Made by a program: the position numbers and the translations under genes. Source: Jiangella asiatica (GTDB taxonomy: Bacteria > Actinomycetota > Actinomycetes > Jiangellales > Jiangellaceae). Taken from it: a DNA stretch of 64,000 bases. Under the pieces are notes generated by a model. It searched no databases, was not told where the DNA came from, and saw nothing but the letters and a program-made list of their open reading frames with translations. This document shows positions 3,744 through 37,097 of this stretch, one piece after another. The number at the start of each line of letters is the position of its first letter. Within the stretch, counting starts at the first letter, position 1. The DNA is taken from positions 1 to 64,000 of the forward strand of contig NZ_SMKZ01000011.1 of the NCBI RefSeq assembly GCF_004349065.1, read 5' to 3'.

Positions 3744-6700
3744 CTACGGAGCCAGCGCCAGCGCGAAGACGTGCATGCCGTGGCTGCCGGGCGCGCTGAT
3801 GGCCGGCAGCTCGACCGCCGTCACCTCCTTCGCCGGGTCGATCGGCACCGACTGGGCGTAGAGGCCAACCGGCCGGTCCTCGCGACCGACCCCGGCCCGG
3901 TTGATGTAGGGCATGACGACCACCGGATCGGGCTCCAGGTCCGGGTACGCCCAGTGCTGGAAGCGCAGGTCGAACGAGCTGCTGGTGCCGTCGCTGTAGT
4001 GGACCGTACCGGTACCCTCGTGCTCGCGCCCGTCAGAGGTGCCGAGAACCGCGAGCCGGCTGCCCGCACCCGCCATGGCGATGAGCTGACCGTTGGCCTG
4101 TACGTTGTCCGGCACTCCGGGCGGCACGTCCGGCCAGGTGAAGACGGCCTCGTCCACGATGACGGGTCCGCCCGGCACTATGCCCGCGTCGGCCAGCGCC
4201 TGGGCCGAGTAGCTACGGCCGTTCCGCCCCCACGACCCGGCGTCCGGGTTGGCGTCGTCGGTGATTCCGACGTTGTCGAAAGCGCCGGCCAGCGAGCCGT
4301 ACGCGACGTTGACCGGCACGCTGACCGCGGCGACGTCGGCGGGCACGCCGTCCGCGGTCCGAGCGGTCAGGCCGATGTCGACGACGGCGGGTCCGGGGCG
4401 CTCGCCGACCAGCCCGACCGTCATGGCGCGACTGCCACCTGCCGGTAGCGGGAACTCCGCCGACGACGGCTCCAACCGCACGCCGTCGGGCTCGCTGGCG
4501 CCCGACAGTCCGACGGTGAGCGGTGTGTCGACGTGACTGGTGATCCGCACGCTCAAGTCGGCCCGGCCGCCCGCGCCGATCACGACGTCAGCGGGCTCTG
4601 CCGTCAGAGTGACCGCCGGCAGGACCGACGTCGCCGCAATCGCCGCGGCTTCGCCCCAGTGCCGGTCGAGTGTGGTGTAGGAGACCCGGGCGAGCAGGTC
4701 GTACTCGCCCGCGGTGGTACCCAGCGGCACGTCGAAGCGCCACCGCAGAGTGCGGGTCTCCCCCGCCGCCAGTGGCCGGTGCCGGTTCGCCGCCGGCTCC
4801 ACCAGCTGACCGGTGACCTGGGTGAGGTTCACCTGGTCGTATGCGACGACCTCCACACCGAGGTCCCGCAACGGCCGGTCGCCGGGGTTCGTGACGGTGA
4901 CCGTGGCCATGCCGTCGCCGAGCTGGCGTAGCTCGACCGGCGCGACCGTCGAGGCCTCGGCGACCGTCACCGACCCTGGCCCTCCGGTGCCGCCGACGCT
5001 GTCGGTGTCCGGGTCCAGAGTCGGCAGGTCGAGATACGCGGGCTCCAGCCCAGCGGCACGGATGACGTCCTGGTTGCCCACGCCGTTGTCGACCAGGTCG
5101 TTGTTCAGCCCGCCGGTCGTGTGCAGCCGGATCGGCTCGTCGACGTTGTGCCACTCGTTGTTCGACACCAGCAGGTTGCTCGTGTGGTCGTCGGCGTAGA
5201 TGCCGCGGACCCTGGACTCGCCGGGCTGGGCGGGGTTCTCGTTGACGTTCGTGATGTAGTTCCCGTCGATGGTCGACCGCGGGACGGGGTTCGGCCCGGA
5301 CAGGTCGTAGTAGTAGTTGTTCTTGCTGTGGATCGCGCCGCAGTCCGCGGAGATCGTGCAGCTCGCGTCGATGCGGTTGCCGGTGATCTGCACGTTCCGC
5401 AGCGACAGCACGTCGTCGCCGATGTTGAAGACCGAACCGACGTTGATGGCGATGTTCTTGACGTCGCGGATGAGGTTGTTGGACACGGTGAGGCCGTTCG
5501 GGAACGTCGCGGTCACCGCGCTGTCGGTGGCGTAGTCCTCCCCCATGTGGGCGAAGTAGTTGTTGGAGACGGTCTCGTTCCGGTTCTCCTGGTCCGGCTC
5601 GGCAATCGGGTCGTGCTGAGAGCCGATGAAGACCGCGGTGTCGGCGACGTGGGTGAACATGTTGCCGACGATCTCGTCGTCGTGCGTGGCCGGGCCGAAG
5701 ACGATGCCGTTCGCGCCGAGGAAGCGGAAGGCGTTGCGGCGGAAGCTGATGTGCGAGGCGTTTCGCACGTTCACCGCGCCCGGGTTGACGTACCACACCG
5801 GGAATCCGTCCGCGTAGCCCAGCGGCTCGTGCTCCAGGTGAAAGCCGCCCTGGCGCTGCAGGTTGCCCTGCTGGTCCGGCAGCAACCAGGTGCTGTGCGC
5901 GAACTGCAGCCCGTAGAACTGCAGGTGCGACGCGCCGTCGATGTCGAGCAGCTGCTCGGTGACAGGAGCGACCACGCCGAGCGTGTTCGGGTTGGCGCCG
6001 TCCGGCGGCTTGAGGTAGACGGTGTCGGCCGTGGTGTCCAGGTACCACTCGCCGGCCTGGTCGAGGAACTCGCGGGCGTTCTCGAAGTAGACCGGCGACA
6101 CCGAGCCCCGCCGTGTCGTGGTGGTCGCGACCGGTATCTCCCCGCCCGTGGCACCGGTGGAACCTTCCGGCTGCCGCGCCACCACCCAGCGGTTGCCCGT
6201 GTCGTCCGCCGAGGTCGACTCGATCCGGTAACGCCACTGCCTCCAGGCGAAGTGCACGATCACCTGGGCTCGTTCCAGCTGCTGGAGATCCCAGTCGGCC
6301 AGCGTGTCGGCCGGGACCCGCACCTGGGTGGTGTTGGTGCCCTCGAGCGTGAACGGCTGCCCCTGGACGAAGCTGCCCAGGTTCGGAGTGCGGGCGCGGG
6401 TGAACCGCTGCCCGGTCGCATACAGCTGGAGGAAGTTCAGTCCGCCCGCGTCGGCGCTCCAGACGCCGTCGGGCCCCGGCGTCCAGCCGGTGATCGGTGT
6501 GCCGCCGCTCAGCACGGGCGACTCACCCGGATAGTTCCGCCATACGACACTGTGCTCACTCGTACCGGAGTCCCGTGCGTCGAACGTCAACGGCTCGGCG
6601 ATGCGATAGGTGCCGCCGTGCAGGTACACGATGACGTCGCGCCCGGCGCCGGCATCGGCTGCGGTGTGGCGGCGTTGCTCCTGCTGCGCCCGTTCCAGAG

Positions 6701-6926: not shown

Positions 6927-6997
6927 GGTCATGCCCTTCTTGACGTGTTCAGTGGCTGGCGGACCGGATCGATCTGCGGCGGATGGATGCCCGGCGG

Positions 6998-9214
6998 TCA
7001 TAGCCGCCGGGGCGCGAATACCTGGACCTCGGCCAGCGAGAGCGGGTTGGTCGGCGAGGCGAGCTGGACCCGCACGTATCGACCCGCACGGTCGACCGGG
7101 ATGTGTGTCGGAGTCCCCGCAGTCTGTGGCTGGTGGTGGGCCGTCACACCGGGCTGGGCCAGGATCTCGGCGACCGATTGGCTCGCAAACGGCTCGTCGG
7201 AGACGAACACGTAGTAGTCCGTCAGGCGGTTGGCACAACAATCGGTCCGATTCCAGACCGCGATCTCGCCGATGGTCCGGACGGACCCCAGGTCGACCTG
7301 CCACCAGGCTTGGGACTCCGGCTGGGCCGTGTGACTGACCGAGCCGTTGTACCAGCTGCCGTCTGTGTTGCCGTCCACCGCCAGTTCCGGCAGCCCCTGG
7401 CTACCCCGATACAGACTTTTCTGCGTCGCGGTTCTCCCGGCCGCGGCGTTCTCGTACCCGGCCAGGACCGAACCCTCCGCCGGGTAGGAAAGCCGTCCGA
7501 ATGACGCCACCGACCGCACCGAGTACCGTCCCGCAGCCACGTCCGGCGGCGGTGACACCGTGAACTCGACGTTGCGCGACTCCCCCGGCGAGATGGGCGT
7601 GACGATGGCCTGCTCCGGCACCGCCGACCAGCCGGTGGGTACGTCCAGGCCGATGCGGCCGGCGAGCGAGCGCGCCGATGCCGGGTTCGTCACGGTCACC
7701 TCGGCCGTGAACGACTCGTCCGCGACGACCGGAGGGATCGCCACTTCGGTCCGCAGCAAAGGACCCGTGCCGCGCGCGGCGATCTTGAACGTGTAGGCGT
7801 GCTCGCTCGCCGTTGCGGCCGCGCCCTCCATGGGCATCGGTACGGAGACCACGTCACCGTCCCGACGCCACGGCAGTGCGGCGCCGTCGGAGCCGAGCAG
7901 CGTGACGGTGCTGTTGCTCGCGAGTGGCAGGTCACCGGACAGCGTCAGCTGCTCTCCCGGCCATTCCAGCGCCGTGACGTAGAGGGCGTCGTCCTGCAGG
8001 GTGTAACGGACCGGGACGTTGCTGTTCTCGTCCTCGGCGTAACTCCAGTACGTGCTGCCGTAGATGGCCTCGCCGTTGATCTCCAGCCAGTCCCCGACGG
8101 CGCGGACCCGATCGGCTTGGATCTCGGGTATGGAGCCGTCCGCGCGCGGACCTAAGTTGATCATCAGGTTGCCGTTCTTGCTCACGACGTCGGCCAAGTC
8201 GTCGATCAGCTGGTTCGGTGTGGCCAGGTCCTCGGTCGCCTCCTCGGCGTTGTAGCCGTACGACGTGCCTAGCGTGCGCGGGCTCTCCCACTTGTCCTTT
8301 CTGATCCGCGGCTCTTGCAAGTTGTCTCTGGTGAAGTAGTCGTAGGTGCCGTTGCCGCAGCGGTTGTTGACCGTCACATCCTTCGGCTCGTCGCGGTTCT
8401 TCGCCTGGTTGAAGTAGTAGGCCATGAACTCGTTGCTGTTGTTCGGCCCGCCGATGTCGCACCAGAAGATGTCAGGGTCGAACCGGTCGACAAGCTCCAG
8501 CATCTGCGGATACTGGTGGTTCATGACGTAGTCGTCCAACGGCGTGTAGCCGGTGTATGGGATCTCCTTACCGGTGTAGGGATGGCGCGGCGGCCCGCCC
8601 GGCCAGTACAAATAGGGCGGCTGCTGCGGGTGGAACCACTCCGGCAGCGAGTAGTACAGCCCCTTCTTCAGCGGGTAGTCCCGCGCCGCCGCGATCAGCT
8701 CGGAAATCAAATCCCGGTGCGGCCCCAGCGCCACCGTGTCGCGGTCGGTGGTGTCGGTGTCCCACAACGCCACGCCGTCGTGGTGCTTGCTGGTGACGAC
8801 GAAGTACTTCCCGCCGCCTTCGACGAACAGGCTCAGCCACTGCCGCGGGTCGAACTCGTCGGGGTCCCACTGCTCGATGAAGTCGTCGTAGGAGAAGTCC
8901 TCGCCGTAGAACTCGCGGTGGTGGTTGTACGTCGGTGTGCCGGCGTTGCCCAGCTGGTTCCAATACCACTCGGCGTAGTGACCCGCAGCCCCGAACGCGG
9001 GAACCGAGTACGGCCCCCAATGGATCATGTAGCCGATCTTCGCGTCGTCGAACCACTGCGGCGAATCGTGCCGAGACAGGGACTCCGGCGTCGGCGCGTA
9101 GTCCGGGACGGCCGGAGCATCGGCCGCATGGCCGGGCCCGGCCGCACCGGACGCGACGCCGATCACGGCCGCGCACAGCACGCCTCCGAGCGCGAAGCGG
9201 AAATGTCGTGCCAT
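6998..9214 (-). CDS. secreted GH29 alpha-L-fucosidase with NEW3-like and F5/8C (CBM32-type) domains
   Basis: 738 aa. Signal peptide 1-30 ending GPGHAADA. The catalytic (beta/alpha)8 barrel (~40-395) shows WFDDAKIGYMIHWGPYSVPA, FVVTSKHHDGVALWDT and DPDIFWCDIGG; Asp253 in the W-C-D motif is the expected GH29 nucleophile. A C-terminal beta-sandwich of the catalytic unit, a NEW3-like module (AEVTVTNPASARSLAG) and an F5/8 type C domain (AWWQVDLGSVRTIGEIAVWN) follow. It removes terminal alpha-L-fucose with retention of configuration, outside the cell. GGGAGG lies 5 nt before the start. It is 55 nt downstream of the GH-A hydrolase gene and is less like the other three secreted fucosidases, which share a different C-terminal architecture. 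Confidence 0.9.
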   Translation of the reverse strand: MARHFRFALGGVLCAAVIGVASGAAGPGHAADAPAVPDYAPTPESLSRHDSPQWFDDAKIGYMIHWGPYSVPAFGAAGHYAEWYWNQLGNAGTPTYNHHREFYGEDFSYDDFIEQWDPDEFDPRQWLSLFVEGGGKYFVVTSKHHDGVALWDTDTTDRDTVALGPHRDLISELIAAARDYPLKKGLYYSLPEWFHPQQPPYLYWPGGPPRHPYTGKEIPYTGYTPLDDYVMNHQYPQMLELVDRFDPDIFWCDIGGPNNSNEFMAYYFNQAKNRDEPKDVTVNNRCGNGTYDYFTRDNLQEPRIRKDKWESPRTLGTSYGYNAEEATEDLATPNQLIDDLADVVSKNGNLMINLGPRADGSIPEIQADRVRAVGDWLEINGEAIYGSTYWSYAEDENSNVPVRYTLQDDALYVTALEWPGEQLTLSGDLPLASNSTVTLLGSDGAALPWRRDGDVVSVPMPMEGAAATASEHAYTFKIAARGTGPLLRTEVAIPPVVADESFTAEVTVTNPASARSLAGRIGLDVPTGWSAVPEQAIVTPISPGESRNVEFTVSPPPDVAAGRYSVRSVASFGRLSYPAEGSVLAGYENAAAGRTATQKSLYRGSQGLPELAVDGNTDGSWYNGSVSHTAQPESQAWWQVDLGSVRTIGEIAVWNRTDCCANRLTDYYVFVSDEPFASQSVAEILAQPGVTAHHQPQTAGTPTHIPVDRAGRYVRVQLASPTNPLSLAEVQVFAPRRL

Positions 9215-9269
9215 GAGAACCTCCCGGGTTCGGTCAGCTCGGATGTGATGTGGCCGCGCGACCGGCCGG

Positions 9270-10910
9270 TCAGCGGGTGATCTCGATGCGGTCGACCCAC
9301 ATGATGTTGCCGTCGAGTAGCACCGTCACCGTGGCCTTGTTCGGGACCACCACGTTCCAGACGTCCTCGACATAGGCCGGTGGCCCGCCGGTATCGACGA
9401 GCTCGCGCGAGCCGACCGGCTCACCGTCGACGAGCAGGGTGTAGCGCAGTGGTCCGCGGTCGTCGACGGTGTCGACGGCGGCGTAGCGCACGGTCACGGT
9501 GGACGCCCGTCCGACACGCGGGAACTGGACCAACGGCGGCTCCCACCGCTGGTAGTTGGCCAGCATCACGTGCCGGTTGCGCGTCGGCGACGGCTCGGGC
9601 AGCGCGAACCCGCCATAGCCGGCCGCGTCGGACCAGCCGGCCGGCACCGGCTCGTACTCCGCTTCCAGCACCCCCGAGCGTGGTCGCATGTCCACGGTCG
9701 GGCCGGGCCGCCGGCGGGCCGGCGCCCACATCCGCTCCCGCAGCACCGTCCGGACCCTCGCCAGGATCTCCGGATTCGCCTGCAGCCGGCTGTCACCCCA
9801 GTACCCGTTCGGGCACCGCTGCGCCGTGCATTGCCAGTGCTGCTGGCTGTCCCAGTCGGTGTTGATGTACGACACGGCCCGGATGACGTCGCGGTTGTCC
9901 TGGATGTAGGCGAAGAATTCGGCGAACCACGTGCTCCAGATCGTGTCGACGCTGACGGGGACGCGCGAGTCCCACGGCTCACCGGAGGCGAAGATGCAGC
10001 CCGCCGTCGACTCGCCCAGGTCGTACGCTTGCGGCGCCGCTTCCGCGATCATCACCGGCTTGTTCCGCGCCCGGGCGAAGTCGAGAACGGAGTCCTGGAC
10101 CACCCGTGGTGCGGCGGCCAGCTGGGCGTCGGGCAGACAGGCCAGCTGGTACGCGTCGTAGCTCTCCCCGTAGAAGGTCGAGATGCCGACCCAGTCGACG
10201 GCGTCGTCACCGGGGTACCAGAGGTTCCAGTGCCCGGCCGCGGTCGGGTCGTAGGGCCCAGGCACCTGCACCGGCCACGCCGCGCTCTGCCACACCGTGG
10301 CGACCCGGCCGGCGCCCAGCGCGTCGATGCGCTCGGCGATGTGACGGAACGCCGCCTTGTACTCCGCCGGCTGGTAGCAGTTCCACTCGCCGTCGAACTC
10401 GTAACCGATGCGCAGGTAGACGTCGCGGTTGGTGTCGCGGAGCCACTCGATCAGCTCATCGGTCCAGGCCTGGTACTGCTGGATGACATCCGGCGGAACG
10501 TCCGGGTCGCCGGCGATCGCCTTCAGCGGCGTGAGCGAGCAGTCCTTCAGGTAGAGCCCGACCGCCAAGGCTCCGTCGTACTCCGCGAGGGTCTCCGGGA
10601 AGTAAGTGCGTCCGGTTCCGAAGTCGACCGGTTGGTAGATCCCGGCCAGCGGCGAGCCGACCAGGTTCGTGTAGAGCGTGACGCCGTCGGGCCGCGGATA
10701 CGTCTCGTCGACGTCGAGGACGTCGGCTTTGAAGTCCGACAGCGTCCCGCTGTCCTGTCCCATGAGGAACAGCACCTTCTCGTTGCTGGGCACGTTGACG
10801 GCGTCGAACCGGTCGCGCGGCGCCGCGTCGGCGGACTCTGGTGTGGGTGCGGGGATCAACAGCGCCGTGGCGACGATGCCGGTCGCCACGTAACGAATGC
10901 CACGATGCAT
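9270..10910 (-). CDS. secreted clan GH-A glycoside hydrolase, GH26-like, with C-terminal CBM
   Basis: 546 aa. Signal peptide about 1-30. The barrel shows DVYLRIGYEFDGEWNC with Glu171, placed like the acid/base residue of GH26 enzymes, and NKPVMIAEAAP with Glu290 as the expected nucleophile after strand 7. The residues after ~410 (VLEAEYEPVPAGW through TVTVLLDGNIMWVDRIEI) form a galactose-binding-like beta-sandwich resembling CBM35-type modules. GH26 members cut beta-mannans, beta-1,3-xylans or mixed beta-glucans, so this enzyme may cleave the backbone of the polysaccharide whose fucose branches the neighbours remove. AGGAGG precedes the ATG. Family assignment is from motifs only; a related unassigned clan GH-A family is possible. 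Confidence 0.7.
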   Translation of the reverse strand: MHRGIRYVATGIVATALLIPAPTPESADAAPRDRFDAVNVPSNEKVLFLMGQDSGTLSDFKADVLDVDETYPRPDGVTLYTNLVGSPLAGIYQPVDFGTGRTYFPETLAEYDGALAVGLYLKDCSLTPLKAIAGDPDVPPDVIQQYQAWTDELIEWLRDTNRDVYLRIGYEFDGEWNCYQPAEYKAAFRHIAERIDALGAGRVATVWQSAAWPVQVPGPYDPTAAGHWNLWYPGDDAVDWVGISTFYGESYDAYQLACLPDAQLAAAPRVVQDSVLDFARARNKPVMIAEAAPQAYDLGESTAGCIFASGEPWDSRVPVSVDTIWSTWFAEFFAYIQDNRDVIRAVSYINTDWDSQQHWQCTAQRCPNGYWGDSRLQANPEILARVRTVLRERMWAPARRRPGPTVDMRPRSGVLEAEYEPVPAGWSDAAGYGGFALPEPSPTRNRHVMLANYQRWEPPLVQFPRVGRASTVTVRYAAVDTVDDRGPLRYTLLVDGEPVGSRELVDTGGPPAYVEDVWNVVVPNKATVTVLLDGNIMWVDRIEITR

Positions 10911-10947: not shown

Positions 10948-11838
10948 TCACGACTTCAGAGCCCCCTCCATGATCCCGCCGACGATCTGCCGGCCGGGCA
11001 GGACGAAGACGAGCAGCAGCGGCACCGTCGCGATGACTATGCCGGCCATCTGGACCCCGTAGTCGGTGACGTAGGCCTGGCTCTGCAGCTGCCGCAGCGC
11101 GACCTGGACGGTGAAGCTCCGCGGCGAGTTCAAGACGATCAGCGGCCAGAAGAAGTCGTTCCAGGCGAACATGAACGCGAAGAGCCCGAGCACGGCCGCC
11201 GCCGGACGGATCGAAGGCAGCACGATGCTCCAGAACGTCCGGAACGTGCCCGCGCCGTCGACGGCGGCTGCCTGGACCAGCTCGTCGGGTACGGCATTGT
11301 CGATCGCCTGGCGCATCCAGAAGACGCCGAACGCCGTGACGATGCCGGGGACGATCAGCGCCCGCAGGTCGTTGACCCACCCCAGCTCGTTGATCAGCAG
11401 GAACTGCGGCACCACGCCCAGCTGGAGCGGCACCATCATGGTGCCGATCACCAGCACGAACAGTAGGTTGCGGCCGTGGAAGCGCAGCTTGGCGAACGCG
11501 TAGCCGGCCAGCGCGGAGAAGAACACCTGCCCGGTGGCGACGCAGGTCGCGACCATGAACGAGTTGGCCAGCGCCCGGCCGAACGGTACCCGGGCGAAAA
11601 CCTCGCTCATGTGGTCCAGGAAGTTCCCGCCGGGCACCAGGGCCGGTGGCACGTCGTTGACCGCGGACGAGTCGTTCGAGGCCACGACGAACATCCAGTA
11701 GAACGGGAAAACCGCCACCAGCACCGTTACCGCCAGCACCAGGTACGTGAACCAGGATGGCCGGCCGGCCCCGCGCGGCCGTCGCGGACCGGGTGGCGTC
11801 CCGGCCGCGGCGCGATCCTGCCGGAGAGTCGTCGTCAC
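10948..11838 (-). CDS. sugar ABC transporter permease, MalG type
   Basis: 296 aa with a GTG start at 11838, 7 nt after the upstream permease. Six membrane spans are expected; the first is FTYLVLAVTVLVAVFPFYWM. The cytoplasmic EAA loop reads DELVQAAAVDGAGTFRTFWSIVLPSIRP, typical of the second permease of carbohydrate uptake systems (CUT1). It works with the permease at 11846 and the lipoprotein at 12794. No ATPase is encoded nearby, so a shared MsiK-type ATPase elsewhere is expected. Confidence 0.9.
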   Translation of the reverse strand: MTTTLRQDRAAAGTPPGPRRPRGAGRPSWFTYLVLAVTVLVAVFPFYWMFVVASNDSSAVNDVPPALVPGGNFLDHMSEVFARVPFGRALANSFMVATCVATGQVFFSALAGYAFAKLRFHGRNLLFVLVIGTMMVPLQLGVVPQFLLINELGWVNDLRALIVPGIVTAFGVFWMRQAIDNAVPDELVQAAAVDGAGTFRTFWSIVLPSIRPAAAVLGLFAFMFAWNDFFWPLIVLNSPRSFTVQVALRQLQSQAYVTDYGVQMAGIVIATVPLLLVFVLPGRQIVGGIMEGALKS

Positions 11839-28198: not shown

Positions 28199-29233
28199 TC
28201 AGGTGCCGGCGCCAGGCGCCGTCGGTGCCGCGACGGTGCCGTCCGGGCGGACCAGCGGATCAGGAATCACCGGGTTGCCGTGTACGAAGGCCTCGTACAT
28301 CGTGGTGTTGGAGATCGCCATGCACAGGTGGGCGTTCACCGGTCCCCCGCCGTGCACCTCAGCGCGCAGGCGGAACGCGTCGGCCAGGTGCGCGGTGCGC
28401 ATCGCACCGGTGATCCCACCACGCAGCCGGGCCGACGTGCGCACGAACTGCGCGGCACCGGCGGCGATGAAGTCGGCGGTGTTCATGTGCGCGCCGTCGC
28501 TGGTCTCGGCCACCATCAACGGCACGTCAACGGCCTCGGCCAGACGCCGGTACGCGGTGACCGAGAACTCCCGCATCGGCTCCTCGTACCAGAGGTAATC
28601 CAGCTCGGACAGCGCCCGGCCAAGGCGCACGGCGTCGGGCAGGTCGAAGCCGGCCGACCCGTCGTACATGAGCTCCACCCCGGCGCCCACGTGATCGCGC
28701 AGCCGGGTGCACAGCTCGACGTCGCGGTGGACGTCGCCCCAGGCGTGCAACTTGATCGCTCGGTAGCCCAACTCCAGGCACTGGTCGGCCACGTCGAGGT
28801 ACTCCGCCACGTCACCATAGGTCGCCGTGGAGGCGTAGGCGGGGATGGAGTCGCGGAAGGCACCCAACAGCCGGTACAGCGGCAGGTCGGCCAGCTTCGC
28901 GGCGATGTCCCACAGAGCGACGTCGGCCAGGCCCAGCAGGTACAGCGGCAGCTCCTCGATCCGGTCGATCTCCCACATCCGGTGCCACAGCCACTCGCGC
29001 GCGAGCGGATCGTGGCCGAGGAGCTCGGCGGCGATGCGTCGCTCCACCACGTCCGCCGCGATGACCCCCTGCCGAATCGTGGCGACGCCCTCGACGCCGT
29101 CGTCGGTCACCACGACCAGGCGGCCGGACACACCCGCGGGCGGCGGCGATCCGGGCAGCCCGTCGCGCCACCGGAAGCACGGCGCGACCGGCTCCTGGAC
29201 CAGCTCCACACGAACATCGACGATCTTCGTCAT
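28199..29233 (-). CDS. enolase-superfamily acid-sugar dehydratase (mandelate racemase subgroup)
   Basis: 344 aa from the ATG at 29233 (GGGAG 5-6 nt upstream). N-terminal cap (~1-120) and C-terminal barrel. Barrel motifs: AIKLHAWGD gives the strand-2 Lys-x-His pair; metal ligands are Asp in LMYDGSAGF, Glu in YEEPMREF and Glu in VAETSDGAH; a His lies in RAEVHGGGP. The family includes dehydratases of L-fuconate, L-rhamnonate, galactonate and related acids. In this operon an L-fuconate (6-deoxy-sugar acid) dehydratase is the natural inference, but the substrate cannot be read from sequence. It is the paralogue of the gene at 38240. It ends the tightly coupled sulfatase-transporter-fucosidase block. 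Confidence 0.8.
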   Translation of the reverse strand: MTKIVDVRVELVQEPVAPCFRWRDGLPGSPPPAGVSGRLVVVTDDGVEGVATIRQGVIAADVVERRIAAELLGHDPLAREWLWHRMWEIDRIEELPLYLLGLADVALWDIAAKLADLPLYRLLGAFRDSIPAYASTATYGDVAEYLDVADQCLELGYRAIKLHAWGDVHRDVELCTRLRDHVGAGVELMYDGSAGFDLPDAVRLGRALSELDYLWYEEPMREFSVTAYRRLAEAVDVPLMVAETSDGAHMNTADFIAAGAAQFVRTSARLRGGITGAMRTAHLADAFRLRAEVHGGGPVNAHLCMAISNTTMYEAFVHGNPVIPDPLVRPDGTVAAPTAPGAGT

Positions 29234-29241: not shown

Positions 29242-30264
29242 CTATCCCCGTTGCACCGCGGTGGCGGAGTCGGTGCCGTCCGCGCCGGCCGGGTGCTCGG
29301 CGAGCCAACGGCCCACCTCGTCCAACCGCCGCGCCGACGGCTCCGGGATGCGGCCGTCGCCGTCAGGCCCGACGTTGAGCAGCACGTTCCCGCCTCGGCT
29401 GGCGGCCATCGCCAGCGTGCTGATGAGCTGGGCCGCGGACTTCCAGTCGTGGTCGTCGGACCGGTAACCCCACGTGTTGTTGATCGAGACGGGGGTCTCC
29501 CAGTCGCCGTCGACGACATCGTCGGGCAGGTGGTTGTCGGTGGCGGTGGCGTAGTCGCCGAGGCCGTTGCCGATGCGCCCGTTCACCAGACATCCGGGCT
29601 GCAGTTCGTGGACGAGGTCGACCAGTTCCTGGCTCTGCCGGCGGGTGATGCGCCGCGGAGTGTCGAACCACACCACGCACAGCGGCCCGTACCCCGTCAG
29701 CAGTTCGCGGACCTGCGGCTTGACGTAGTGCTCGACATACCCGTCGAAGTCCTTGCCGGCTTCGGCGTAGTCCCAGTCGTTGCCGTCGCCGTCGGGGTGG
29801 TGCCAGTCCTGGGTCTGGGAGTAGTACACCCCGAACGGCATGCCCTGCCGCCGGCACTCGTCGGCCACCTCCGCGACGACGTCGCGGCCGAACGGCGTGG
29901 CATCGACCGTGTTGTACCCGGTCAGCTTGGTGTGCCAGAGGCAGAACCCGTCGTGGTGCTTGGCCGTCAGGACGACATACCGCTGGCCGGCCCGCTTCGC
30001 CAGCGCGACCCAGGCCTGCGGGTCGAAGTGCTTCGGGTCGAACCGGGCGGCCAAGGTGGCGTACTCCGTCGCCGGGATCCGGGCATGGCACATGATCCAC
30101 TCGCCGATGCCGGGCACCGTCGTCCCGCGCCAACGACCGGCTGCAAGCGCGTAGAGGCCCCAGTGCACGAACATGCCGAACCTGGCGAGGCGGAACCACG
30201 GCAGGCTCGGATGAGTCCTGGCCCCGGGACGCTGCGCCTGCTCCGGTCGCATCTCGCCCGTCAT
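29242..30264 (-). CDS. cytoplasmic GH29 alpha-L-fucosidase, single domain
   Basis: 340 aa from the ATG at 30264, which overlaps the permease stop as ATGA; GGAGGG lies 9 nt upstream. There is no signal peptide and no accessory domain. Motifs: WFRLARFGMFVHWGLYALAA, VVLTAKHHDGFCLWHTKLTG, and LCVVWFDTPRR with Asp201 as expected nucleophile; SRGGNVLLNVGPDGDGRIPE closes the barrel. The intracellular location and coupling to the transporter indicate that it trims fucosylated oligosaccharides after import. The dehydratase gene follows 8 nt later, so freed fucose could pass directly to sugar-acid metabolism. Confidence 0.9.
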   Translation of the reverse strand: MTGEMRPEQAQRPGARTHPSLPWFRLARFGMFVHWGLYALAAGRWRGTTVPGIGEWIMCHARIPATEYATLAARFDPKHFDPQAWVALAKRAGQRYVVLTAKHHDGFCLWHTKLTGYNTVDATPFGRDVVAEVADECRRQGMPFGVYYSQTQDWHHPDGDGNDWDYAEAGKDFDGYVEHYVKPQVRELLTGYGPLCVVWFDTPRRITRRQSQELVDLVHELQPGCLVNGRIGNGLGDYATATDNHLPDDVVDGDWETPVSINNTWGYRSDDHDWKSAAQLISTLAMAASRGGNVLLNVGPDGDGRIPEPSARRLDEVGRWLAEHPAGADGTDSATAVQRG

Positions 30265-31214
30265 CCGCGCAGCCCTCCGCCGAGCAGGCTCGCGCCTTTG
30301 AGGATCGTGCGCTGGGCGACGATCACGGCGACCAGCACCGGGACCATGGTGATGATCGTGGCGAGGATCAGCTCCGGGACGCCGACGGACGAGACGGCGT
30401 CGCTGGTACCGGGGTTCAGCACCCGCGACACCTCGGCCAGGGTGGCCAGCCCCACCGGGAGCGGGTACTTGTCGCTGCCGAGCATGATGAACGGCAGGAA
30501 GAAGTCGTTCCAGTTGCGGAAGAAGGCGAAGAACGTCACCAGCGCGGTGATCGGCCACGACAACGGCAGCGCGATCCGCCAGAACACCTGCCATTCCGAG
30601 CAGCCGTCCATCCGCGCCGCGTCGTACGTGTCGCGGCTGATGGTGGTGCTGAAGTAGATGAACGCCAGATAGACACCGAACGGGAAGACCGACATGGGCA
30701 GGATGACCGCCAGCCGGTCGCCCACCAGACCCAGCGCGCTCATCTGGAGGAACAACGGCAGCGCCAGCGCCGCCGTCGGCATGAGCATGAGCACCAGGCT
30801 CAGCACCAGCAGTGGCTTGCGCAGCCGGAAGTTGCAGGCGCCGAGCGCGTAGCCGGCCGGAATGGTCGCCGCGACGGTCAGCGCCACGCCACCGGCCGTC
30901 AAGATGACGGTGTTCCAGATCCAGTCGACGATCGCGCCGTCGTTGAACTGGCGCAGGTCCTGCCACGAGGACGTCAGCGTCTGCCAGGACCCGAACGAGA
31001 ACGGCGGATCGGTGGCCAGCTGGGTGCGGTCCTTGGTGGCCGCCAGCAGCAGCCAGGCGATCGGCATGACGGCGAACACCGCCCAGCCGATCAGCGCGAG
31101 CCAGGCGAACGCCCGCGCCAGCTCTGGGCCGGCCGCACGGCGATGCCGGCGCGGCGACGCGTCCGGGTCCGCCGGCGCGCTCGAGCGCGGTCGCGTACGG
31201 AGCACGGTCGGCAT
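30261..31214 (-). CDS. sugar ABC transporter permease, MalG type (second set)
   Basis: 317 aa from the ATG at 31214 (GGAG 8 nt upstream), 2 nt after the stop of the partner permease. First span ARAFAWLALIGWAVFAVMPI; EAA-type loop RDTYDAARMDGCSEWQVFWRI followed by ALPLSW. CUT1 carbohydrate uptake. The stop overlaps the next fucosidase start (ATGA). Confidence 0.9.
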   Translation of the reverse strand: MPTVLRTRPRSSAPADPDASPRRHRRAAGPELARAFAWLALIGWAVFAVMPIAWLLLAATKDRTQLATDPPFSFGSWQTLTSSWQDLRQFNDGAIVDWIWNTVILTAGGVALTVAATIPAGYALGACNFRLRKPLLVLSLVLMLMPTAALALPLFLQMSALGLVGDRLAVILPMSVFPFGVYLAFIYFSTTISRDTYDAARMDGCSEWQVFWRIALPLSWPITALVTFFAFFRNWNDFFLPFIMLGSDKYPLPVGLATLAEVSRVLNPGTSDAVSSVGVPELILATIITMVPVLVAVIVAQRTILKGASLLGGGLRG

Positions 31215-31216
31215 GG

Positions 31217-32113
31217 TCAGATCTCCATCCGGAACAGGCTCGTCCGCTTGATGATCAACACGGCCGCCAGCACGGAGATCACCAGCAGCTGCAGCGACAG
31301 CGCCGCCGCCGAGGCGAAGTCGGCGTAGGTGTAGGCGAAGGTGTACGCCAGCTGCAGCGGAGACCAGTTCTCGCCCACCCCGCCGCCGGTGGCGCCGGCG
31401 ATCAGCTGCGGCTCCACGAACAGCTGGGTGCTCGCCGCGACGTTGAGGATCACGGTGTAGGCGACCCACTTGCGGATCATGGGCAGCTTGACGTGTATCG
31501 CCGTCTGCCAGCTGTTCGCGCCGTCGAGCCGTGCCGCCTCGGTGACCTCGACCGGGATCGACGACAGAGCCGCGTACATGAGCAGGATGCCGTTGGCCGA
31601 CGTCCAGACGGCGATGATCGCCAGAACCACCGGCAGGTTCGCCGGCGACAGGACCTCGAACAGGTTGTCGTAGCCGGCGGCGGTCAGCAGCGGCCGGACC
31701 GGGCTGACCGCCGGGGTGAGCATGAAGACCCAGACGATCACGCCCGCCGCGCCCGTGAGGGCCTGCGGCAGGTAATAGAGGAACCGGAACCACGAGGCGA
31801 CCGCCGCCCGGCGCGGCTGCAACAGCAGCGCGAAACCGATGGAGATGACCAGCGACGGAACCAAGAAGGCGACGGTGTACGTGGCGACGTGCTGGAAGGT
31901 CTCGACGTAGCGGAAGTCCTGCGCCACCTGCACGAAGTGATCGAGCGTGAAGCCGCCGGTCTCGCCCTTGAAGGCCAGGTACACCGCGTAGCCGGCAGGA
32001 ACGAGCCCGAAGCCGACCAGCAGCACGGTGTACAACCCGGAGAACAGGTAACCGGCGCGGGCCTGGGCGCGGGCACCACCCGTGCGGCCGGCCGCCACCG
32101 TCATGGCCGCCAT
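31217..32113 (-). CDS. sugar ABC transporter permease, MalF type (second set)
   Basis: 298 aa. Membrane spans include GYLFSGLYTVLLVGFGLVPAGYAVYLAFKG; EAA loop SSIPVEVTEAARLDGANSWQTAIHVKLPMIR. The ATG at 32113 follows the binding-protein stop by 9 nt; an ATG three codons later is an alternative. Partner of the permease at 30261. No ATPase is encoded in the operon. Confidence 0.9.
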   Translation of the reverse strand: MAAMTVAAGRTGGARAQARAGYLFSGLYTVLLVGFGLVPAGYAVYLAFKGETGGFTLDHFVQVAQDFRYVETFQHVATYTVAFLVPSLVISIGFALLLQPRRAAVASWFRFLYYLPQALTGAAGVIVWVFMLTPAVSPVRPLLTAAGYDNLFEVLSPANLPVVLAIIAVWTSANGILLMYAALSSIPVEVTEAARLDGANSWQTAIHVKLPMIRKWVAYTVILNVAASTQLFVEPQLIAGATGGGVGENWSPLQLAYTFAYTYADFASAAALSLQLLVISVLAAVLIIKRTSLFRMEI

Positions 32114-32122
32114 GCCGGTCCC

Positions 32123-33469
32123 CTACTCGCCCTGCTCGACATCCCACCCGGCGGCCTGCGCCTCCTGGGTGATCGTCTGCTGCCACTCGGGCAGCGTCTC
32201 CAGGATCGTCCGGCCGGTCCCGAGAGCCGGCGCGACCGTCGTGCCGTAGCCGATACCAGGGATGCGGACCAGCCCGTAGTCGGGCCAGATCGTGGCGACC
32301 GCCTCGTCGAGGACGGCGGCCACGTCACCCCCGGCGGCCGAGAACAGGCGCGTGTTGCGCTGGATCCAGCCGGCCTGGTGCGGCTGGTAGGCCGGGAACG
32401 TGACCGTCTCGGCTTGCTCCTGATATGGGCCGGTCGCCATCCATTCGACCAGGTCGGCAGCGGCCTCGAGGTGGCTGCTGTGGCGCGAGACGATGTACGT
32501 GCCGCCGCCGACGTTGCCGTTCCAAACCTGGCCGTCTTCCTCCCATTGCAGCGGCGCCGCGACGGCGAACCTGCCCTCAGGGGCGCCGTAGAGGTCCTTG
32601 AAGACGTTGAGCCCGTACCAGATCGGCCCGTAGGCCATGACGAGCTTTCCGGGCTTCCCGTACTCGCGGACGAACTCCGGATCGGTGGCGTTCAGCGGGC
32701 TCATGCTGCCAGCGGCGATGAGCCTGTCGAGCATCTCGGCGACCCTCGTGCAGGTCGGCGCCCCGAGGTCAGTGCGGATGGTGTGGTCGTCCACGATCTG
32801 CGTCACCGGGCAGCGGGAGGGCCAGAAGTACACCAGGTCACCCGGTCCGGCTGCGGACCCGACGGAGTAGCCGGGGTGCTCCTGGGCGATTTGCAGGCCG
32901 AGCTGCTCGAACTCCTGCCAGGTGGTCGGAATCTCGTACCCGAACTCGGCCATGAGGTCCTGGTCGTACCAGAGCACGCTGGGTGCGATGTCGTTGCGCA
33001 GGCAGATGATCCGGTCGCCGTCCGTGCACGGCTCCATCGAGCCCGGCGCGAAGTTGTCGATCACGTCGCTGGGGATGTGGTCGGACAGGTCGGCGGCGAA
33101 GTCGTACGGCTCCGCGGACAGAGCTGCGGCCAGCTCCGGGATGCCGGCCCACATGATGTCCGGCCACCCTTCGCCGGCCCGGTTGGCCAGCTGCAACTTC
33201 GCGGCCATGTCGTCGGGGTTGCCCACCTCCTGGATGTCCAGCCTCACCTCCGGGTGCGCCTCCTGGTAGGACTCGAAGCCGGCCTTCCGCACGGTGTCGG
33301 TCCATACCACGAGGGTCGCCGGGCCGTCGTCCTGCTCCGGCGTTTCCGAGGTGCCGCTCGAGCCGCAGCCGGCGGCGAGGAGGGCCACGCCGGCCGCCGC
33401 GGCCGCTGCCGTCCGGCGGCGCCGCGCGCCGAGTCGCTCGGCGCGGACGTTCGTGAGGATGGTGGTCAT
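32123..33469 (-). CDS. sugar-binding lipoprotein of ABC transporter (second set)
   Basis: 448 aa from the ATG at 33469, which overlaps the sulfatase stop as ATGA; AGGAG lies 9 nt upstream inside the sulfatase gene. Lipobox LLAAGC after an alanine-rich signal. Family 1 binding-protein features: TLVVWTDTVRKAGFESYQEA, WPDIMWAGIPELAAAL, DIAPSVLWYDQDLMAEFGYE and GNVGGGTYIVSRHSSHLEAA. It feeds the permeases at 31217 and 30261. Coupling to a sulfatase and a cytoplasmic fucosidase suggests that its ligand is a fucosylated, perhaps once-sulfated, oligosaccharide. Confidence 0.9.
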   Translation of the reverse strand: MTTILTNVRAERLGARRRRTAAAAAAGVALLAAGCGSSGTSETPEQDDGPATLVVWTDTVRKAGFESYQEAHPEVRLDIQEVGNPDDMAAKLQLANRAGEGWPDIMWAGIPELAAALSAEPYDFAADLSDHIPSDVIDNFAPGSMEPCTDGDRIICLRNDIAPSVLWYDQDLMAEFGYEIPTTWQEFEQLGLQIAQEHPGYSVGSAAGPGDLVYFWPSRCPVTQIVDDHTIRTDLGAPTCTRVAEMLDRLIAAGSMSPLNATDPEFVREYGKPGKLVMAYGPIWYGLNVFKDLYGAPEGRFAVAAPLQWEEDGQVWNGNVGGGTYIVSRHSSHLEAAADLVEWMATGPYQEQAETVTFPAYQPHQAGWIQRNTRLFSAAGGDVAAVLDEAVATIWPDYGLVRIPGIGYGTTVAPALGTGRTILETLPEWQQTITQEAQAAGWDVEQGE

Positions 33470-34812
33470 CGATCCAGCTCCTGTAAGACGGGGTCGGCCT
33501 CGGGTCGCTGCGGGCTCATGGGGCAGCCGGTTCCGGTCCAGTGCCGGGTCCAGTGGCCGTCCTGGTCGCCGTGCTCGTCCTGAAGCTGCCGAAGCAGCGC
33601 CAGCAGCAGGGTTCGCACGGTGGTATGGGCCGGGTCGGCGGCCAGGTCGCGGGTCTGCCACGGGTCGTGTCGGACGTCGAACAGCTGGAGGCGGCGGGCC
33701 GGCCGGTAGGCGGCCAGGGCCCACTGCCGGGTCCGGACCAGGCGCTGCAGGTCGCGGTAGGCGCCGAAGATCGCCCGCTGCCCGACCGGGCGGCCCTGGA
33801 AAGCCGGCGCCAGACTCTGGAAGTCCACGGAGTCCGGGACCGAGATCCCCGCGAGGTGGCACAGCGTCGGGAAGATGCTCGCCTGGTAGACGAGGTCGTC
33901 GACGCATAGTCCCTGGGGGATGCCCGGGCCGGCGACCAGCAGCGGCACCCGGACGCTGTGGTCGTACATCGACTGCTTGCCCATCAGGCCGTGCTCCCCC
34001 AGCGCCAGCCCGTGGTCGCCGGAGAACACGACGACGGTGTCGCCGGCCAGCCCACGCCGGTCCAGGTCGTCCAGCAGCCTGCCGATCTGCTCGTCGGCGT
34101 GCGACACGATCGCGTAGTACTGGCGCCGGTGCTCCCGCACTTCGGCGGGAGTGCGCGGGAACCCCGCCAGGAGCTCGTCGCGCACGAGGCGGTCGCCCTG
34201 GTCGAAGGGGTGGGCCGGCAGCAGGTTCGGCGGCAACCGGACGTCGTCGGCTGGATACCGCCGCAGCCAGCGCTCCGGTGCCTGGCGCGGGTCGTGCGGC
34301 GCGTGCATCGCCAGGTGCAGGAAGAAGGGTTCGGGCCGGCCGTCGTGCCCGGCGAGGAAGTCAAGCGCCGCGTCGACCCACCGCTCGCTGCTGTGCACCG
34401 CACCGCCGGCGGTGCTGAACCAGTGGCTGGTCAGCATGCCGCCGGTCGCGTGCGGTCCCACCACCTGGTAGCCGCGGCGCAGCCAGTCGTCCGGGCTGTG
34501 CCACTTGCCGGTGAAGAACGTGCGGTAGCCCGCGGCGGCCAGGACCTCGCCGAGCAGCATCGGGCAGTCCTCGGCGTCCACCGCCGCGCGAGCGTGGAAC
34601 AGGCTCCGCCCGGTCAGGAGCATCGCCCGGGCGGGCATGCACACCGCCGGGCTCCACGACCCCTGGTTCACGGCATGGCTGAACGCGCAGCCGCGTTCCA
34701 CCAGGCGATCGAGGTTCGGGGTCAGCACCTGGCTGTTGCCCAGTGCCCCGATCGCCCAGTGCGTCATGTCGTCCATGAAGATCAGGACGATGTTCGGACG
34801 GCCTGTCGGCAC
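33466..34812 (-). CDS. type I sulfatase (formylglycine family), probably cytoplasmic
   Basis: 448 aa from the GTG at 34812 (GGGAG 7 nt upstream); family homology begins at once with RPNIVLIFMDDMTHWAIGAL. The maturation motif is VCMPARAMLLTGR: Cys-x-Pro-x-Arg, with the Cys converted to formylglycine. Metal-site residues lie in MDDM and VVVFSGDHGLALGEHGLMGK. There is no signal peptide, although upstream sequence in the same frame is open. It hydrolyses sulfate esters, here presumably on sugars of imported or cell-surface oligosaccharides; a phosphonate or phosphodiester substrate is less likely in this context. Translationally coupled to the binding protein (ATGA). Confidence 0.85.
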   Translation of the reverse strand: MPTGRPNIVLIFMDDMTHWAIGALGNSQVLTPNLDRLVERGCAFSHAVNQGSWSPAVCMPARAMLLTGRSLFHARAAVDAEDCPMLLGEVLAAAGYRTFFTGKWHSPDDWLRRGYQVVGPHATGGMLTSHWFSTAGGAVHSSERWVDAALDFLAGHDGRPEPFFLHLAMHAPHDPRQAPERWLRRYPADDVRLPPNLLPAHPFDQGDRLVRDELLAGFPRTPAEVREHRRQYYAIVSHADEQIGRLLDDLDRRGLAGDTVVVFSGDHGLALGEHGLMGKQSMYDHSVRVPLLVAGPGIPQGLCVDDLVYQASIFPTLCHLAGISVPDSVDFQSLAPAFQGRPVGQRAIFGAYRDLQRLVRTRQWALAAYRPARRLQLFDVRHDPWQTRDLAADPAHTTVRTLLLALLRQLQDEHGDQDGHWTRHWTGTGCPMSPQRPEADPVLQELDR

Positions 34813-34850
34813 GCTGTGTCTCCCTGTCTCGGTCGTTGGTCTGGAGTGAG

Positions 34851-37097
34851 TCAGGGGGTGACGATGATCGCGTCGAGGCCGACCCACGTGTTGGTCGCAG
34901 GCGGGTCGTTGGTGCCGGTGACCCGCAGGGTGACGGTGTGCGGCCCTGGCTCGAGCCCGTCCCTCTCCCAGACCACGACCTGTTCCTGCGCCGGGTCGCT
35001 GTAGGTGTCGACCAGTTCCTCCTCGCCGCCGTCGACCGAGATGGCCGCGATGCCGTGCCCGGGACGGGTCTGCACCATGACCGCGACACCGGTGCCCTCG
35101 AATGCGAGCTCGGCGGTGGCCGGCTGGTAGGCGAAGTGCCGGGTCGCGTTCCACGCGCCGTTCCACGCTCCGTGCTGCCACGGACCGCTGTACTCGATCG
35201 GCGAGTTGGCGGTGCACCGGTCACCGGTGTCGTCGTAGATGCGCCGGCCGTCCGGGAGGACCTCGAACGGCGCACCGGGCGTGAACGGTGCCAACGCGGC
35301 GAGCGGGATGAGCCCGTCGAGCGTGACCCAGGAGCCGGTCGAGGCGGCGTTACGTTCTCCGGTGACCTCCACCGTCAGCGTGTGCGGGCCGGGCTCGAGA
35401 GCGTCCTGCTCGAACACGGTCTGGTTCCGCCCGGCCTCCGCCCGGTAGAGGTCGACGGCCTGTGGCTCTGCGCCGTCGATGCCAACCGTGGCGATCCCCT
35501 GGTCGGGGCCGACGCTGGCGCGCAGCTCGACCGCGTTCCCGGTGAACGTGAACGTCGCGGTGTCGCCGGCCTCACGGGAACGGTGCACACTCTGGTTGAA
35601 CGCGCCGGCGAAGGGCACGCTCGGCGGCAGCCGTGGCACCTCCGGCGCGGTGGCTGGGCGGTCCATGGCCTGCCAACTGCCGTCGTATTCGACGGTGTCG
35701 GCGGTGTCGTCGATGCCGCCGTAGGCCTTGAACTCCGCGACGCCGACACCGTCGGAGGCACCGTCGACCACCAGTCGCAGGCTGTCGGTCGTCACACCGG
35801 TGAACTGGTCGTGCTGTGTCGGAATCGACGGCGTGCCGGCCTCCCGTGCGGTCCGCCAGCTCCCGTCGGCGGCGCGGTACTCGATCCGGTAACCGGCCAC
35901 GTCGTCGCTGGTGAACTGCACCGCCGTCTGGTCGATGGTCATGACCTCGGGCAGGTCGACCCGCAGCCAGGCGGACTCGCCGTCCGCCGGAACCGCCCAG
36001 TAGGTCTTCGCCTCCAGGTCGGTGGCATCCCCGGCCGGATGACCGTCGGCGGCGCTGCCCGCCGTGGTGGTGGCGCCGGCCAGCAGATCGCCGCCGCGCA
36101 GCCGGTCGCCGATTCCCTCCAGCAGCCGGACGTTGGCCGGGGAGAACTGGCCGGTCGGCCCGGGCGAGACGTTCAGCGACAGTGTCGCGCCGAGGTACCG
36201 GACGTAGGCGAGGGTCGACACCGCCTCGTCGACGTCGCCGCTGGGCTGCGCGTCCGCGGTCATCTCCCACCAGCCGGGTCCGCCGGCGACGTTGTAGGCC
36301 TGTTCCGCCGGCAGGCCGGTGTAGTCGCACGGCATCATCTCGATGCCGGGTCCTTCGAAGGACGTCACGTCTTCGGCGTCGCTGACCTCGCGCAGGTTCG
36401 GGATGAACGCCGTCTCGGGCGACACGCCGTGGATGAAGTCGGCCAGGTCGTTCAGGTCGGCGCCGGTCGGGATGTCCAGCCAGAGCCCGACCACCGGCCC
36501 GTACTCCGTCAGCAGCTCCCGCATCTGGTTCTTGGCGAACTCGACGTACTCAGGTGACGGAGGCGCACCGGACAGGACGTTGCCGCCCGGCTCCATCTTG
36601 TCCCACCACGAGTAGTAGAACGCCACCTCGAGACCACGCTCCCGGGCTGCGCTCACCACCTCGCCGACCACATCGGTCTCGGGGTCGGAGCTGTTCGCGA
36701 CGTCGTACTCGGTGTACGCGCTGTCCCACATGGCGAAGCCGTCATGGTGCTTCGTGGTGAGGATGATGTACTTCGCGCCGGCCGCGACGATGGCGTCCAT
36801 CCACTGGTCAGGGTCGAAGTCCTCGGGGGCGTACGTCGTTGCCGGGTAGTCCCGCGGGTCGTAGCTCCAGGGCGTCTGGCCCACGAACGTCGCCAGCCCG
36901 TAATGCATGAACACCCCGAAGCCGAGCGCCTGGTACGCCTCTCCTGGGCTCACCTGACCGGGGTCCGCACCCCCGGTCCCCTGCGCCGACGCCGACGCGG
37001 ACAGGAACGATCCCGCAAGGACCGCCATGGCCACGACGCTCGCTCCGGTCCCGAGTAGACGTCTGGCGATGGACCGATGGTGCGTACTGCTTCTCAT
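34851..37097 (-). CDS. secreted GH29 alpha-L-fucosidase with F5/8C domain and two repeated C-terminal modules; first gene of the operon
   Basis: 748 aa. Signal peptide ARRLLGTGASVVAMAVLAGSFLSASASAQ. Barrel: GFGVFMHYGLATFVGQTPWS, TTKHHDGFAMWDSAYTEYDV and VGLWLDIPTGAD with Asp208 as expected nucleophile. F5/8C-type domain (LEAKTYWAVPADGESAWLRV, VAEFKAYGG), then two module copies starting near residues 490 and 617 and ending TNTWVGLDAIIVTP. GGAGGGG lies 6 nt before the ATG. It is the promoter-proximal gene, facing the FadR-type regulator across a 318-bp gap. Confidence 0.88.
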   Translation of the reverse strand: MRSSTHHRSIARRLLGTGASVVAMAVLAGSFLSASASAQGTGGADPGQVSPGEAYQALGFGVFMHYGLATFVGQTPWSYDPRDYPATTYAPEDFDPDQWMDAIVAAGAKYIILTTKHHDGFAMWDSAYTEYDVANSSDPETDVVGEVVSAARERGLEVAFYYSWWDKMEPGGNVLSGAPPSPEYVEFAKNQMRELLTEYGPVVGLWLDIPTGADLNDLADFIHGVSPETAFIPNLREVSDAEDVTSFEGPGIEMMPCDYTGLPAEQAYNVAGGPGWWEMTADAQPSGDVDEAVSTLAYVRYLGATLSLNVSPGPTGQFSPANVRLLEGIGDRLRGGDLLAGATTTAGSAADGHPAGDATDLEAKTYWAVPADGESAWLRVDLPEVMTIDQTAVQFTSDDVAGYRIEYRAADGSWRTAREAGTPSIPTQHDQFTGVTTDSLRLVVDGASDGVGVAEFKAYGGIDDTADTVEYDGSWQAMDRPATAPEVPRLPPSVPFAGAFNQSVHRSREAGDTATFTFTGNAVELRASVGPDQGIATVGIDGAEPQAVDLYRAEAGRNQTVFEQDALEPGPHTLTVEVTGERNAASTGSWVTLDGLIPLAALAPFTPGAPFEVLPDGRRIYDDTGDRCTANSPIEYSGPWQHGAWNGAWNATRHFAYQPATAELAFEGTGVAVMVQTRPGHGIAAISVDGGEEELVDTYSDPAQEQVVVWERDGLEPGPHTVTLRVTGTNDPPATNTWVGLDAIIVTP

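Follow-up and report, generated by a model that had tools for sequence, protein, structure and literature searches.

Fucoidans are broken down slowly and have been tied to long-term carbon storage (PMC12786026); most accounts of their degradation concern Verrucomicrobiota, Bacteroidota and Planctomycetota (in part after PMC8857213). The locus analysed is a run of 18 genes in the actinomycete Jiangella asiatica, located on the minus strand from position 37097 to 3744 of a stretch of 64,000 nucleotides (contig NZ_SMKZ01000011.1, assembly GCF_004349065.1, positions 1 to 64,000; hereafter the window). It is read as a regulated catabolic operon for a probably sulfated polysaccharide rich in fucose, with β-1,3-linked xylose either in the same molecule or alongside it, and with an algal fucose-containing sulfated polysaccharide as the leading candidate, and the probability of this reading is put at roughly 0.55.

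In the fucoidan cluster of Wenyingzhuangia fucanilytica CZ1127T, several GH141 (glycoside hydrolase family 141) enzymes with the same catalytic Asp pair as here are encoded together with other fucoidan-active enzymes (PMC12786026). The J. asiatica operon differs in that its GH141 proteins lack the HQxWxxxD motif, only one sulfatase is present and a GH26 enzyme is added. Transport of the SusC/D type is usual in the phylum of W. fucanilytica; the SusC/SusD pair that marks a polysaccharide utilization locus (PUL) of the Bacteroidota type is absent among the 18 genes, where the transport genes are those of two ABC (ATP-binding cassette) sets only, accompanied by a GntR regulator. The PUL-like loci of marine Verrucomicrobiota, for which a sulfated fucose/xylose polysaccharide has been proposed as the target, likewise combine GH29 enzymes with sulfatases, one type including GH141 and one a xylosidase; these populations express fucose isomerase and carry microcompartments (PMC8857213), whereas the dehydratase of the J. 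asiatica operon points to an oxidative route and its genes form one directional run. β-1,3-Xylan loci, reported in 47 strains, one of them named for Actinomycetota, also contain a secreted GH26 and an ABC importer of xylo-oligosaccharides (PMC12125979); the present operon, by comparison, has no GH43 or GH3 xylosidase, xylose isomerase or xylulokinase, and its GH26 gene is set among fucosidase genes. Actinospongicola halichondriae, which has three GH29 genes, possesses a non-phosphorylated L-fucose pathway of aldose dehydrogenase, fuconolactonase and fuconate dehydratase (PMC12263773), whose logic is common to the loci of g07 relatives, whereas the operon itself holds the dehydratase step only. 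Systems of this kind are already known; this one departs from them in its apparent one-promoter build, its actinomycete host, the addition of a xylan part and a module that recurs in several enzymes. No actinobacterial locus of such a kind was found among the literature matches listed, a search that covered titles and the beginnings of abstracts and left most subscription journals outside.

The genes, numbered from g01 to g18 in the direction of the operon, are as follows.

g01, 34851-37097, minus: predicted secreted GH29 with an F5/8 type C domain and two copies of a shared module (Pfam 143 bits; PDB 3ues 124 bits)
g02, 33466-34812, minus: sulfatase with no signal peptide, the N-terminus being without a strongly hydrophobic stretch (Pfam 152 bits; CMPAR)
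g03, 32123-33469, minus: sugar-binding protein of ABC set 1 (Pfam SBP_bac_1)
g04, 31217-32113, minus: permease of ABC set 1 (Pfam BPD_transp_1)
g05, 30261-31214, minus: permease of ABC set 1 (Pfam BPD_transp_1)
g06, 29242-30264, minus: predicted intracellular GH29 of 340 residues, AlfC-like, N-terminus not strongly hydrophobic (Pfam 283 bits; PDB 9s0x 286 bits, AlfC 274 bits)
g07, 28199-29233, minus: MR/MLE acid-sugar dehydratase, predicted L-fuconate dehydratase (Pfam; 65% relatives in loci L122 and L123)
g08, 25026-28163, minus: predicted secreted GH141-type protein with Big_2 and one shared module (GH141_M 22.5 bits; catalytic Asp pair aligned)
g09, 21834-24992, minus: predicted secreted GH141-type protein with Big_2 and one shared module, 57% identical to g08 (GH141_M 23.6 bits)
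g10, 19565-21799, minus: predicted secreted GH29 with F5/8 type C domain and two shared modules (64% identical to g12)
g11, 16468-19548, minus: predicted secreted GH141 (PDB 9rx2 217 bits; 78-79% identical copy on contig C62 of the same genome)
g12, 14138-16417, minus: predicted secreted GH29 with F5/8 type C domain and two shared modules (Pfam, module search)
g13, 12794-14080, minus: lipoprotein-type sugar-binding protein of ABC set 2 (lipobox VTSC)
g14, 11846-12763, minus: permease of ABC set 2 (56-58% relative adjoining GH26 in genome G268)
g15, 10948-11838, minus: permease of ABC set 2 (52% relative adjoining GH26 in G268)
g16, 9270-10910, minus: predicted secreted GH26 of β-1,3-xylanase type with an extra C-terminal domain (PDB 2ddx 133 bits; both conserved Glu aligned)
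g17, 6998-9214, minus: predicted secreted GH29 (TmFuc-like) with NPCBM_assoc and an F-type-lectin-like domain (Pfam 318 bits; PDB 1hl8, 3cqo, 1k12)
g18, 3744-7001, minus: predicted secreted GH141, BT_1002 nearest in PDB (5mqp 131 bits; start uncertain: 7001, 6932 or 6926)

An earlier reading made from the letters alone (the sequence-only reading) had listed five GH29 enzymes, four GH141-like proteins, a sulfatase, a dehydratase and two sugar ABC sets, and the Pfam profiles return the same: GH29 five times, GH141-type four times, one sulfatase, one MR/MLE dehydratase, two sugar-binding proteins and four permeases, with no ATPase gene in either ABC set. Its further claim of 18 genes on one strand with gaps of at most 71 nt agrees with the coordinates of the open reading frames (ORFs), whose codon-position GC is typical of coding DNA. 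From g01 to g18 the gaps are 38, -4, 9, 2, -4, 8, 35, 33, 34, 16, 50, 57, 30, 7, 37, 55 and -4 nt. The largest is 57 nt with the g18 start at 7001, which has no ribosome site, and 65 or 71 nt if g18 starts at 6932 or 6926. The ATGA overlaps it described are clear at two junctions, g02/g03 and g05/g06; at two more, g11/g12 and g17/g18, an overlap is optional, as the start that would produce it has no ribosome site. The starts of g12 and g18 are ambiguous.

No terminator-like or promoter-like site was detected between 19900 and 38500. Between 3200 and 20000 there are six terminator-like sites (4.0 in shuffled sequence, standard deviation 2.1), of which the coding strand holds one, at 7260-7243 inside g17, and a single promoter-like site, on the strand opposite to the operon; the counts are not above those of shuffled sequence. 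After the end of g18, 481 nt separate it from the next minus-strand gene. No other same-strand run in 356 kb of this genome exceeds 11 genes, as counted by a crude gene caller that split the operon itself into runs of 12 and 4 and hence undercounts. The short gaps and the lack of internal operator or terminator signs suggest that the 18 genes are co-transcribed as one operon, as had been proposed, with no operator match inside, two before and one beyond the end. A chance run of genes is ruled out by the coherence of families, gaps and operator positions.

The operator-like sites stand at both ends of the operon, together with the following features.

r01, 37350-38243, plus: divergent GntR/FCD regulator, predicted repressor (Pfam FCD and GntR; 84% relative in G011)
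r02, 38240-39328, plus: second dehydratase, overlapping r01 (63% identical to g07)
g19, 665-3262, minus: surface protein with an LPDTG tail and DUF6923 and GEVED domains, predicted to belong to the r01 regulon (operator 3 directly before its start)
Predicted operator 1 of the GntR regulator, 37174-37188, no strand assigned: no mismatches
Predicted operator 2, 37291-37305, no strand assigned: no mismatches on both strands
Predicted operator 3, 3272-3286, no strand assigned: just upstream of the g19 start, with one mismatch to the 14-mer and two to the 15-mer

The palindrome AACAAAT-N3-A(G/T)TTGTT is repeated between g01 and r01. Its 15-mer form with up to two mismatches occurs in the window at 37174, 37291 and 3272 only, giving 6 rows (the motif being near-palindromic, three places are counted as six) against 0.32 expected, a count that is not independent, since the motif itself derives from these regions. 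A search of all 7.03 Mb of the genome with the 14-mer, allowing one mismatch at most, gives 11 rows, 7 of them at these three places, and the only perfect 14-mer matches are those at 37174 and 37291. Relatives of r01 are found in two of the 22 family genomes, this one included. The other, G011, belongs to the same genus and contains four rows at three places, C164 2686, 2803 and 9060, all at the orthologous locus; the first two are spaced 117 bp apart, as are 37174 and 37291 here, and the site at 2803 had no part in deriving the motif. In three congeners that lack an r01 match there are 2, 1 and 4 rows. In G011 (L031 2581-3146) a 14-base stretch with the g01 ribosome site is kept before an ATG, and the GH29 frame listed there begins ~250 bp later.

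All five GH29 proteins exceed the cut-off of the Alpha_L_fucos profile (25.2 bits) with scores of 133.9-318 bits, and the conserved Asp in WLDI/WMDI is taken to be the GH29 nucleophile. The structures nearest to g01 are 3ues and 3mo4, and g01, g10 and g12 are paralogues with 63-64% identity. An AlphaFold model of g10 had a confidence score (pLDDT) of 50.7 and was not used. The GH141_M cut-off, 27 bits, is exceeded by g11 (34.3 bits) and g18 (41.7 bits) among the GH141 proteins. The two catalytic Asp residues of BT_1002 are D523 and D564 in the numbering of PMC12786026; located on the chain through the distance of 41 between them, they align with residues that are invariant in all four GH141 proteins and also with 9rx2. 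For the PDB codes 9RX2, 9RZX, 9RZY, 9S0X and 9S03 the literature search returned unrelated matches only. The g02 profile score is accompanied by the motif CMPAR, which fits the signature C-x-P-x-R of S1 sulfatases.

A module of ~100-140 residues is present twice each in g01 (34854-35270 and 35307-35609), g10 and g12, and once each in g08 and g09. Genome-wide at 1e-8 it gives 9 matches, eight in these five enzymes and one weak (38.5 bits) elsewhere, and four other genomes of the 22 in the family have one match each. The C-terminal domain of g17, similar to 3cqo and 1k12, contains H628, then 27 residues and RTDCCANR; the signature of F-type lectins (CBM47) is H-x(about 26)-RxDx4(R/K), and the spacing in g17 is one residue longer than in this form.

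The genome has 68 sulfatase matches, the most among the 22 genomes of the family, where 11 congeners have 5-29 and 10 other genomes 0-47; it also has 9 GH29 and 5 GH141_M matches. On its contig C62 (L044 480-11539) the GH141 with 78-79% identity to g11 adjoins a sulfatase, and this paralogous locus also holds an ABC set resembling set 1 (38-44% identity), a GntR gene like r01 and a PL8 lyase. In G020, the family genome with the next most sulfatases (47), a g11 relative has three sulfatase matches within ~10 kb. The operon, C62 and G020 are all the places found at 1e-100, and in each of the three a sulfatase is encoded in the operon of the g11-type GH141 or close by.

The PL8 lyase of C62, standing beside GH141, sulfatase and GntR genes, raises the question of an animal target such as fucosylated chondroitin sulfate, echinoderm sulfated fucan or mucin. 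Another PL8 gene lies ~10 kb past the window, where two sulfatase genes share the same stretch, a GH20-GH29 fusion is encoded on contig C82, and g01, to which g10 and g12 are 63-64% identical, is nearest in PDB to the α-1,3/4-fucosidase 3ues; the PL8 lyases and the fusion elsewhere in the genome are what keeps animal glycans under consideration. The operon itself, however, encodes no PL8, GH20 or other glycosaminoglycan or mucin enzyme recognised by Pfam, and a GH26 of β-1,3-xylanase type does not suit animal glycans. Such a target is regarded as improbable.

Relatives of g03 occur in 24 of the 393 genomes sampled in the class, this one included, and eight loci with relatives of ABC set 1 were examined with crudely called genes. 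In L122 and L123 a dehydratase with 65% identity to g07 adjoins the transporter and is followed by an aldo-keto reductase and an amidohydrolase, whose sole NCBIfam match is L-fucono-1,5-lactonase (228 bits, cut-off 400). A rhaM mutarotase is additionally encoded in L122, and a protein that matches the lactate-oxidation Fe-S type below the cut-off in L123. In L124 the matches to lactonase (157 bits) and mutarotase (49.5 bits) are weaker, and the dehydratase shares only 28% identity with g07. Four of the eight loci (L123, L124, L128 and L129) contain a GH141 relative (26-29% to g18), and neither a dehydratase nor a GH141 was found by this gene calling in L125, L126 and L127. Of five GH141 loci of other family members, three (L034, L035 and L042) have an aldo-keto reductase with 47-64% identity to that of L123, adjacent in two and ~5 kb away in L042; L036 and L043 gave none. 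This layout matches the non-phosphorylated L-fucose route, and ABC set 1 is most simply seen as a fucose or fucoside importer, with g07 and r02 as probable L-fuconate dehydratases.

The label GH26-like given by the sequence-only reading to g16 can be refined. No Pfam model matches g16, but comparison with the GH26 β-1,3-xylanases Xyl4 (2ddx, 133 bits) and AlXyn26A (7xjr, 65 bits) aligns both conserved Glu residues, presumably the GH26 catalytic pair, and by sequence g16 is a GH26 of β-1,3-xylanase type. Xyl4 acts on continuous β-3-xylan and AlXyn26A on mixed-linkage and β-3 xylan (PMC12706835). The type of g16 adds xylose to the likely substrate. Relatives at 1e-30 are found in two of the 396 genomes sampled in the phylum, this one included; in the other, G268, the GH26 adjoins counterparts of g13-g15, a binding protein (35%) and two permeases (56-58% and 52%), as well as a GH43 and a LacI gene.

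This arrangement bears on the possibility that two systems are stacked on one promoter, one for a fucan or fucoside (g01-g12, g17 and g18) and a separate one for β-1,3-xylan (g13-g16), both glycans coming from the same algae but not forming a single composite polysaccharide. In G268 the relatives of g13-g16 form a unit of their own with GH43 and LacI, none of the eight examined loci with ABC set 1 relatives has a g16 match, and published β-1,3-xylan loci are self-contained, with a known layout of GH26, importer and xylosidase (PMC12125979). Against stacking, g16 and ABC set 2 sit between the fucan-type g12 and g17 without a regulator or a β-xylosidase of their own. Stacking is considered unlikely.

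The GH26 type also speaks against plant glycans, rhamnogalacturonan II (RG-II) or fucosylated xyloglucan. Such a target is suggested by g18, which is nearest to BT_1002, an RG-II α-L-fucosidase (activity in PMC12786026), and by a GH78 rhamnosidase gene ~16 kb away. That gene, however, adjoins a GntR of its own, a sulfatase is present in the operon, the GH26 is of a marine xylanase type, and no other known RG-II or xyloglucanase family is represented among the 18 proteins. The lack of other RG-II families and the GH26 type make RG-II unlikely, and a plant target as a whole is held to be very improbable.

The algal-type fucose-rich, probably sulfated polysaccharide with xylose fits the gene content, the regulator sites, the neighbours of relatives and the sulfatase load. 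The sequence-only reading had proposed a sulfated or heavily fucosylated glycan, and this gains support from the five GH29 and four GH141-type enzymes, the lectin signature of g17, the dehydratase and importer relatives that stand with oxidative L-fucose genes, and the 68 sulfatases. Its view of a complete system did not hold, as the operon contains one sulfatase without a signal peptide and, of the fucose dehydrogenase, lactonase, fuconate dehydratase, KDF dehydrogenase and hydrolase that make up the oxidative fucose pathway, only the dehydratase.

In the proposed scheme, in which substrates, cellular locations and the direction of regulation are predictions, the secreted GH141 (g08, g09, g11 and g18), GH29 (g01, g10, g12 and g17) and GH26 (g16) enzymes would cut the glycan outside the cell, several of them anchored to it through the shared module and, in g17, through the F-type-lectin-like domain. 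Fucose or fuco-oligosaccharides would enter through ABC set 1 (g03-g05), and xylo-oligosaccharides through ABC set 2 (g13-g15). Inside the cell, the sulfatase g02 would desulfate and the GH29 g06 would free fucose, which may be oxidized to L-fuconate, dehydrated by g07/r02 and directed to pyruvate and lactate. The regulator r01 is predicted to act as a repressor of its own gene, of the operon and of the surface-protein gene g19, with an acid-sugar intermediate lifting the repression.

Several observations weigh against this scheme and its substrate. As whole proteins, g08 (22.5 bits) and g09 (23.6 bits) score below the GH141_M cut-off; the genome search, which included neighbouring stretches, put them over it. 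The HQxWxxxD motif of the GH141*6 endo-fucanase branch is found in none of the four GH141 proteins, for which reason fucoidan itself is a candidate only; the DG..NxxxxN pattern of that branch occurs in g18 alone, with relaxed spacing, and RxD, present somewhere in all four, is uninformative. No non-GH141 endo-fucanase family was recognised by Pfam, whose coverage of GH107, GH168, GH174 and GH187 was not checked, and in place of the endo-fucanase and several sulfatases of a fucoidan utilization locus the operon holds a single sulfatase, predicted to be cytoplasmic, and no endo-fucanase signature. It also has no β-xylosidase. On the fucose side, the NCBIfam scores of dehydratase and lactonase are under the curated cut-offs, and no relative of the mutarotase, the aldo-keto reductase or the lactonase was found in the ~0.53 Mb scanned of this genome (~92% lies outside the scan). 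As regards the operators, besides the dependence of the window count on its source, 4 of the 11 genome-wide rows fall elsewhere, the 11 are no excess over the 16 that the reversed pattern gives (in G011, 4 as against 9), so that the case rests on position, and no site with up to two mismatches is present at the paralogous C62 locus (GntR ~58%) or at L127 (GntR 47%).

A bolder version, tentative and rather doubtful, would have one composite sulfated fuco-xylan dismantled by a Gram-positive, ABC-importing system, in which GH141 proteins of an uncharacterised branch act as endo-fucanases, a new carbohydrate-binding module family has been shuffled onto GH29 and GH141 enzymes within one operon, and the GntR regulon has the genome's only perfect operators here. 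A locus under one promoter in a sulfatase-rich actinomycete would extend the range of known degraders and supply secreted enzymes; it would also tie uncharacterised GH141 and the repeated module to a target of the fucose type and define an operator for a GntR regulator.

The same operon was not found elsewhere in the samples searched. Relatives of the GH29 trio, with g10 as the query, are present in 2 of 99 related genomes at 1e-60 (this one included), in this genome only among 396 sampled in the phylum at 1e-70, and in none of 72,556 plasmid records at 1e-40; in the genome contig collection, one relative with 29% identity was found among 30 pattern matches obtained with two peptide patterns only. 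Relatives of g11 occur in 2 of 393 genomes sampled in the class at 1e-100, this one included, and in four plasmid records with less than 33% identity. Plasmids of Halomontanus rarus carry relatives with 28-29% identity (NZ_CP135523.1 198561-200678 and NZ_CP119799.1 205005-207122).

Elsewhere in the window, a separate minus-strand cluster at 42418-56679 encodes an AMP ligase, a lactonase-like hydrolase, dehydrogenases, an oligopeptide-type ABC transporter, the GH78 rhamnosidase and a GntR regulator. The end of the window (63048-64000) and the sequence that follows it (L041 3048-17275; contig C22, 63-77 kb) contain two sulfatase relatives, two permease relatives and a PL8 lyase with Golvesin_C. 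The GH20-GH29 fusion of contig C82 (L037 903-5321) is a protein of 1472 residues with laminin-G-like and F5/8 type C domains.

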